NCBI GenBank assembly: GCA_030685015.1
Contig: JAUXWS010000021.1
Coordinates: 1 to 46,174, forward strand
Source: a bacterium
Lineage (GTDB): Bacteria > CAIWAD01
Length of the DNA: 46,174 nucleotides
Direction: 5' to 3'
The position numbers were made by a program, and so were the translations under genes. Below, in pieces: positions 45,716-46,174 of this stretch; the first letter of the stretch is position 1; every line of letters starts with the position of its first letter. The notes under the pieces are model-generated. The model saw only the letters and a list, made by a program, of their open reading frames with translations, searched no databases and had not been told where the DNA came from.

Positions 45716-45733
45716 AGATCAACGGATACATTT

Positions 45734-45749
45734 TGGCACGAGGGGTGCA
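45734..45749 (+). promoter_or_regulatory. Sigma-54 (-24/-12) promoter
   Basis: TGGCACGAGGGGTGCA matches the consensus TGGCACRNNNNTTGCW at all but one defined position. GG (45735-45736) and GC (45747-45748) are exactly 10 bases apart. The start is predicted at about 45760. Confidence 0.75.
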
Positions 45750-45759
45750 ATTCTTCACT

Positions 45760-45894
45760 GTGCCGGAAGGCAGGCCGGCATGATCGCTGCTGGAGCGGCT
45801 TGCGGCGATCGAGCGCGTCCGACTGGACGCTACACCACCGCGTGGTGTTGAGCTTTGTGGGGATGAGTCAGGGCGCGGCAACGCGCCCTCACTC
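45760..45894 (+). ncRNA. Candidate structured RNA of about 135 nt from the sigma-54 promoter
   Basis: Five hairpins in series, beginning at the predicted start: TGCCGG/CCGGCA (45761-45780); GATCGC/GCGATC (45782-45810) with inner pairs; GCGTCC/GGACGC (45815-45830); ACACCAC/GTGGTGT (45832-45848); and GAGT-C-AGGGCGCG with GCAA loop and CGCGCCCT-C-ACTC (45865-45894). There is no convincing coding sequence; the longest in-frame ATG (45780) gives 23 residues. No known RNA family is recognised by eye. It could be a regulatory small RNA or the leader of a gene beyond the intron. Confidence 0.5.
45865..45894 (+). terminator. Strong terminator-like hairpin with GCAA tetraloop
   Basis: An 8-bp perfect GC-rich stem closed by GCAA, extended by four more pairs after one C-C mismatch. 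Only TGT separates it from the intron. A T-tract, if any, would lie in the 3' exon beyond the window, since the intron may split stem and T-tract. Confidence 0.6.
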
Positions 45895-45897
45895 TGT

Positions 45898-46174
45898 GTG
45901 CGCCCAGCATGGGCGCCGTCCTGGAGGTGCAAGTCCTCCCGTGAGCAGACCAACGTGAGCGAAGTGAAGCGCAACTGCGGAAGGGCGACCGACCGTGGGA
46001 AGGACGCGTGGAGCGTAAACCGCGGGTGGATGGACAAGAACCGGATAGGAGGCGACGCCGGACAGGGCGAGCGGGCACAGGATCGCAAAGCTCCGATGGT
46101 CAAGGTCCAGGCGGCGTAGATCCGGCCATCGTGCGGTGAAGGACGGTGTTCTTGGCTGGGGAGATCCCGCCTTG
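45898..46174 (+). mobile_element. Group II intron, 5' ribozyme part (cut by window edge)
   Basis: Starts with GTGCG, the usual 5' end of bacterial group II introns, and continues with the pattern of a domain I core: GTGCGCCCAGCATGGGCG, ctggaggtgcaagtcctcc, cgtgagcgaagtgaagcg, gaagggcgaccgaccgtggg, aggatcgcaaagc and ggctggggagatc. These match my knowledge of intron RNAs that carry a reverse transcriptase/maturase gene farther downstream. The remaining domains and any maturase gene would be to the right of 46174. The 73-codon open frame within it is not a gene. The upstream hairpin resembles class IIC insertion preference, but class is not assigned. Confidence 0.88.

Follow-up and report, generated by a model that had tools for sequence, protein, structure and literature searches.

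A group IIC intron behind a GC-rich hairpin without a T-tract in a bacterial draft genome

Introduction

Class C group II introns insert behind terminators and, in some cases, behind attC sites (PMC4424553); their targeting of terminators has also been described elsewhere (PMC7161350, PMC3898094). They recognise short IBS1 and IBS3 sequences together with a hairpin (PMC3898094), and it has been proposed that they are transcribed mainly by read-through (PMC3522654).

The bacterial class C introns B.h.I1, Ta.it.I1 and GsI-IIC have a reverse transcriptase (RT) of class C type with RT and maturase domains, sit behind a stem-loop, pair EBS1 with IBS1, begin with GTGYG and contain domains V-VI, and resemble the intron described here in all these respects. 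They differ from it in that its target hairpin has no T-tract and its own RT is broken. With the integron-associated group IIC-attC introns it shares the class and a hairpin target, but a casual look around its site showed neither an integron integrase nor an attC array. The feature fits the published behaviour of class C introns.

Results and discussion

The stretch of DNA analysed, here called the window, is the entire contig C21 (46,174 bases) of a 3.6-Mb draft genome in 105 contigs. Its right end lies inside an intron, and this end and seven other contig ends fall within the same repeated element. The features at this end are:

45865..45894, + strand: GC-rich hairpin taken as the insertion target, with 13-nt arms and a GCAA loop, without a T-tract
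45898..46174, + strand: group IIC intron, 5' part (277 nt), from an RF02001 match and the other copies in the genome

The 5' boundary at 45898 follows from five further copies in the genome, whose similarity to the window copy starts at or beside that base. The Rfam family RF02001 (group-II-D1D4-3) scores 93.4 bits over 45979-46151, its gathering score being 32. The class was assigned from the RTs of two sister copies, on contigs C31 and C25, by comparison of bit scores and not from an RT phylogeny. Against PDB entries, the C31 RT scored 370 bits with GsI-IIC, 211-267 bits with other maturases that we take to be of IIC type, 121 bits with LtrA (presumably IIA) and 107 bits with the 6me0 maturase; GsI-IIC leads the next entry by about 100 bits. 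Pfam gave only RVT_1 and GIIM, and no endonuclease domain, in the C31 and C25 RTs, the N-terminus of the former lying beyond the contig end and the latter being 5'-truncated. TIGR04416 was above its cut-off. Judged from these sequences, the window intron belongs to the bacterial group IIC (class C); the genome has several copies of it, and the class given in a preliminary description of this DNA is borne out.

The copy on C25 (L046, 2218-3494) starts within the RT gene, has both RT and maturase domains and retains its 3' end. A copy at the left end of C30 (L010, 1-490) is ORF-less: its domain IV is very short, and domains I-III and V are not separated by an RT gene. At L107 (around 435) one copy is inserted a single base beyond the 3' end of a second copy and may have used the domain VI hairpin of the latter as its target. 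Two further elements were noted: an 892-aa ORF on C82 (L048, 181-2859), which reads as a putative RT-Cas1-like fusion, and the genome's only RF00029 match (G000, C63:8862-8964), which apparently belongs to another type of group II intron and not to one of these copies.

The arms of the window hairpin (45865-45877 and 45882-45894, 13 nt each) are 92% complementary, and the hairpin is present in both the MFE and the centroid folds. It is followed by TGT and then by the intron start GTGCGCCCAGC at 45898, a stem-to-intron distance of 3. The chance rate for a hairpin that equals or exceeds its score of 30 and ends within 9 nt of a given point is about 0.15% of window positions. The folds and the other copies in the genome place hairpin, spacer and intron start where they had been reported. 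The hairpin had also been called terminator-like: the stem is there, but no T-run follows it and a terminator scan of the window found nothing at this site, so that one half of an intrinsic terminator, the stem-loop, is present without the other. Matches of 29 nt to the hairpin occur on C20, C13 and C6; they lie in a repeated element whose hairpin resembles that of the window, seen at three places in the genome (L039, L040 and L041, near 1501), and were judged to be due to chance or unrelated.

The rule behind this placement was examined in 70 non-redundant 5' junctions drawn from 80 related loci. A hairpin with a score of at least 24 was found within 20 nt of the intron at 90% of them, against 2.8% of 1050 control positions, with a median stem-to-intron distance of 5 nt. 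All six 5' junctions in the window's own genome and one from the same genus are preceded by a strong hairpin; the same-genus copy on contig C52 of genome G002 sits behind a GGGGCCCC stem-loop and TTTCTTTG. The window, all 5' junctions of its genome and most relatives thus have the intron directly 3' of a stem-loop, and the earlier proposal of hairpin-guided insertion holds.

The position of the T-tract is another matter. In the 70 junctions the T fraction is 0.54-0.86 at positions -9 to -4 upstream of the intron. The first base of the 3' exon is T in 62%, and beyond it the T fraction is 0.14-0.38; a run of four T occurs within 15 nt upstream in 71%, versus 7% in the 3' exon. As T is enriched upstream and not in the 3' exon, the usual order is stem, T-tract, intron. 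This speaks against the suggestion that insertion occurs between stem and T-tract and, since both normally lie upstream of the intron in this family, insertion does not abolish termination. The window copy departs from the usual site: the stem is kept and the T-tract is missing, with none on either side of the junction (5' exon, and the 3' exon assigned to it on contig C15, see below).

The exact insertion point is matched by a short pairing between intron and 5' exon:

45892..45897, + strand: IBS1, CTCTGT, end of the 5' exon, pairing with EBS1 ACAGG(A)
46077..46082, + strand: EBS1, ACAGGA, exon-binding loop, tracking the 5' exon across 72 copies

A search through the first 420 nt of the aligned copies, for five bases that pair with each copy's own 5' exon, located EBS1. 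The 420 nt of the window copy were joined via a 141-nt overlap with C15, EBS1 itself being within the window. The sole clear site was intron position 180, where the mean pairing was 0.86, compared with about 0.58 with the exons of other copies (+0.28); pairing was 0.85 in register and 0.41-0.53 in shifted registers. In the window copy five of the six positions of ACAGGA and CTCTGT are paired (ACAGG with TCTGT), four of them as Watson-Crick pairs.

In the same genome four readable copies, whose identity to the window copy is about 93-95%, bear four different EBS1 hexamers; EBS1 differs at two to four of its six positions, as against 3.5-6% elsewhere in the intron. EBS1 is constant in four other multi-copy genomes. 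The EBS1 of the C21 and C20 copies fits their own insertion sites at the boundary, and that of C15L has no good fit to its own site. Closely related copies in one genome might have switched their target-recognition loop, perhaps in a process of retargeting between hairpin sites that still continues, but we hold this reading only tentatively and consider it rather unlikely; the main alternative is that these are assembly chimeras in a repeated element. In the copy L003 on C92, EBS1 (CATGGA) pairs at one of six positions with the bases adjoining the intron and at all six with TTCATG five bases upstream, as if the 5' end of the copy were five bases (GATGG) too long.

We are highly confident that the window holds the 5' part of a group IIC intron retroelement whose insertion into an intergenic stretch took place at a DNA hairpin, through reverse splicing and a short EBS1-IBS1 pairing. 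By analogy with known class C introns, the intron would have reverse spliced into intergenic DNA directly behind the GC-rich stem-loop, with the pairing setting the exact point. Its target would be the sequence just behind the stem-loop, upstream of a pair of genes for a TetR regulator and a DAHP synthase. The intron lies behind the hairpin and does not part it from a T-tract. Splicing or movement of this copy would depend on protein from a sister copy. The hairpin, the boundaries, the class (through the sister copies), the pairing, domains V-VI in the 3' half and the missing T-tract can all be read from the DNA itself. Against this explanation stand the splitting of the window copy over contigs, with a C30 end that shares the same 141-mer, a domain V-VI score under the RF00029 cut-off and a hairpin without the T-tract usual at such sites. 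The element is a new copy of a known kind, an ordinary hairpin-targeting group IIC intron.

This explanation may be refined: the hairpin might still terminate or attenuate transcription without a T-tract, leaving the intron silent behind it as a self-limiting class C strategy. The GC-rich stem is intact upstream of the intron and the read-through proposal mentioned above agrees with such silence, but the window copy has no U-run, which counts against it. The refinement is plausible, falling just short of an even balance.

The 141 bases with which C21 ends recur without a difference at one end of C15, in the manner of an assembly k-mer overlap. From there C15 runs on through RT fragments to domains V-VI; the intron ends at CTATGCCGAT, and the 3' exon assigned to the window copy is TGGTCCTCCGCTCCC. 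Domains V and VI, with a bulged A near the 3' end, are found on this half, outside the window (fold z = -5.9), where the generic domain V-VI family RF00029 scored below its cut-off. Extension to the right, as the preliminary description had advised, thus yielded RT fragments, domains V-VI and an exon; neither another intron class nor a missing domain V, which it had named as refuting outcomes, was encountered, but the T-tract it expected in the 3' exon is absent from TGGTCCTCCGCTCCC.

Directly behind the intron on C15 lie a TetR gene, identified by TetR hits, and a gene whose sequence reads as a DAHP synthase. In G001, a genome of the same genus, ComEC, an ortholog of P0001 (the last gene of the window), TetR and DAHP synthase are contiguous, with a short gap without an intron between the P0001 ortholog and TetR. 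In the window's own genome the right end of C21 carries ComEC and P0001, and C15 carries TetR and DAHP synthase. The right end of C30 stops at the same 141-mer as C21, so the assembly graph is ambiguous as to which copy C15 continues. The 3' half on C15 could accordingly be part of the C30 copy, with the remainder of the window copy unassembled, in keeping with the halt of both contigs at the same intron point. The G001 gene order and the EBS1-IBS1 match favour C21 over C30, however, and make this improbable: in the family register EBS1 of the shared segment pairs at five of six positions with the C21 exon and at three of six with the C30 exon, which attains five of six one base out of register. 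The C15 end is very probably the 3' half of the window copy, as we infer from the 141-nt overlap, the G001 gene order and the EBS1-IBS1 pairing.

The RT in the C15 half is broken. It has an internal deletion that includes the first catalytic region, YADD is changed to CADD, there is an in-frame stop, the N-terminal frame is disrupted and the C-terminal part is lost. With such an RT/maturase the window copy would need a sister-copy protein for splicing or movement; on its sequence it is not autonomous, and any present ability to splice is likewise inferred.

Upstream of the hairpin lies one further feature:

45733..45749, + strand: sigma-54-like -24/-12 motif TTGGCACGAGGGGTGCA, an exact match to TTGGCACGNNNNNTGCW, of putative function

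The preliminary description had proposed that insertion between the stem and the T-tract of a terminator could have ended termination of a sigma-54-dependent small RNA, making intron transcription and splicing follow sigma-54. The motif is a good one, 116 nt upstream of the hairpin, the genome encodes RpoN, and the segment between motif and hairpin is structured (fold z = -3.0). TTGGCACGNNNNNTGCW occurred in none of 100 window shuffles, the pattern having been chosen after the site was seen, and was found once in this genome; the site departs from the -12 TTGC at its first T. A small RNA upstream of the intron is possible as a candidate only. A DNA-level search of 59 other genomes, of which three share its genus or family, gave no match to the 310-nt segment 45588-45897; plasmids gave none either, and the segment is absent from the syntenic gap in G001. 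Rfam returned the intron matches and no other family, and sigma-70 promoter scans upstream of TetR in the window's genome and in G001 found none. In the relatives the T-tract lies 5' of the intron, and in this copy the assigned 3' exon lacks one. Loss of small-RNA termination through the insertion is therefore unsupported. Sigma-54-coupled splicing is unsupported as well, although motif and rpoN are present; with no T-tract before the intron or in the assigned 3' exon, the coupling is speculative, and the split-terminator proposal as a whole is very unlikely indeed.

That the element is not a group II intron, or is one of another class, is ruled out by the RT comparison.

Conclusions

The hairpin rule of class C introns is confirmed here in a lineage that appears sparsely sampled, and the geometry first proposed for the site is corrected: the T-tract normally lies upstream of the intron. 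The copies within this one genome could serve to study changes of EBS1 during the spread of class C introns to new hairpins.
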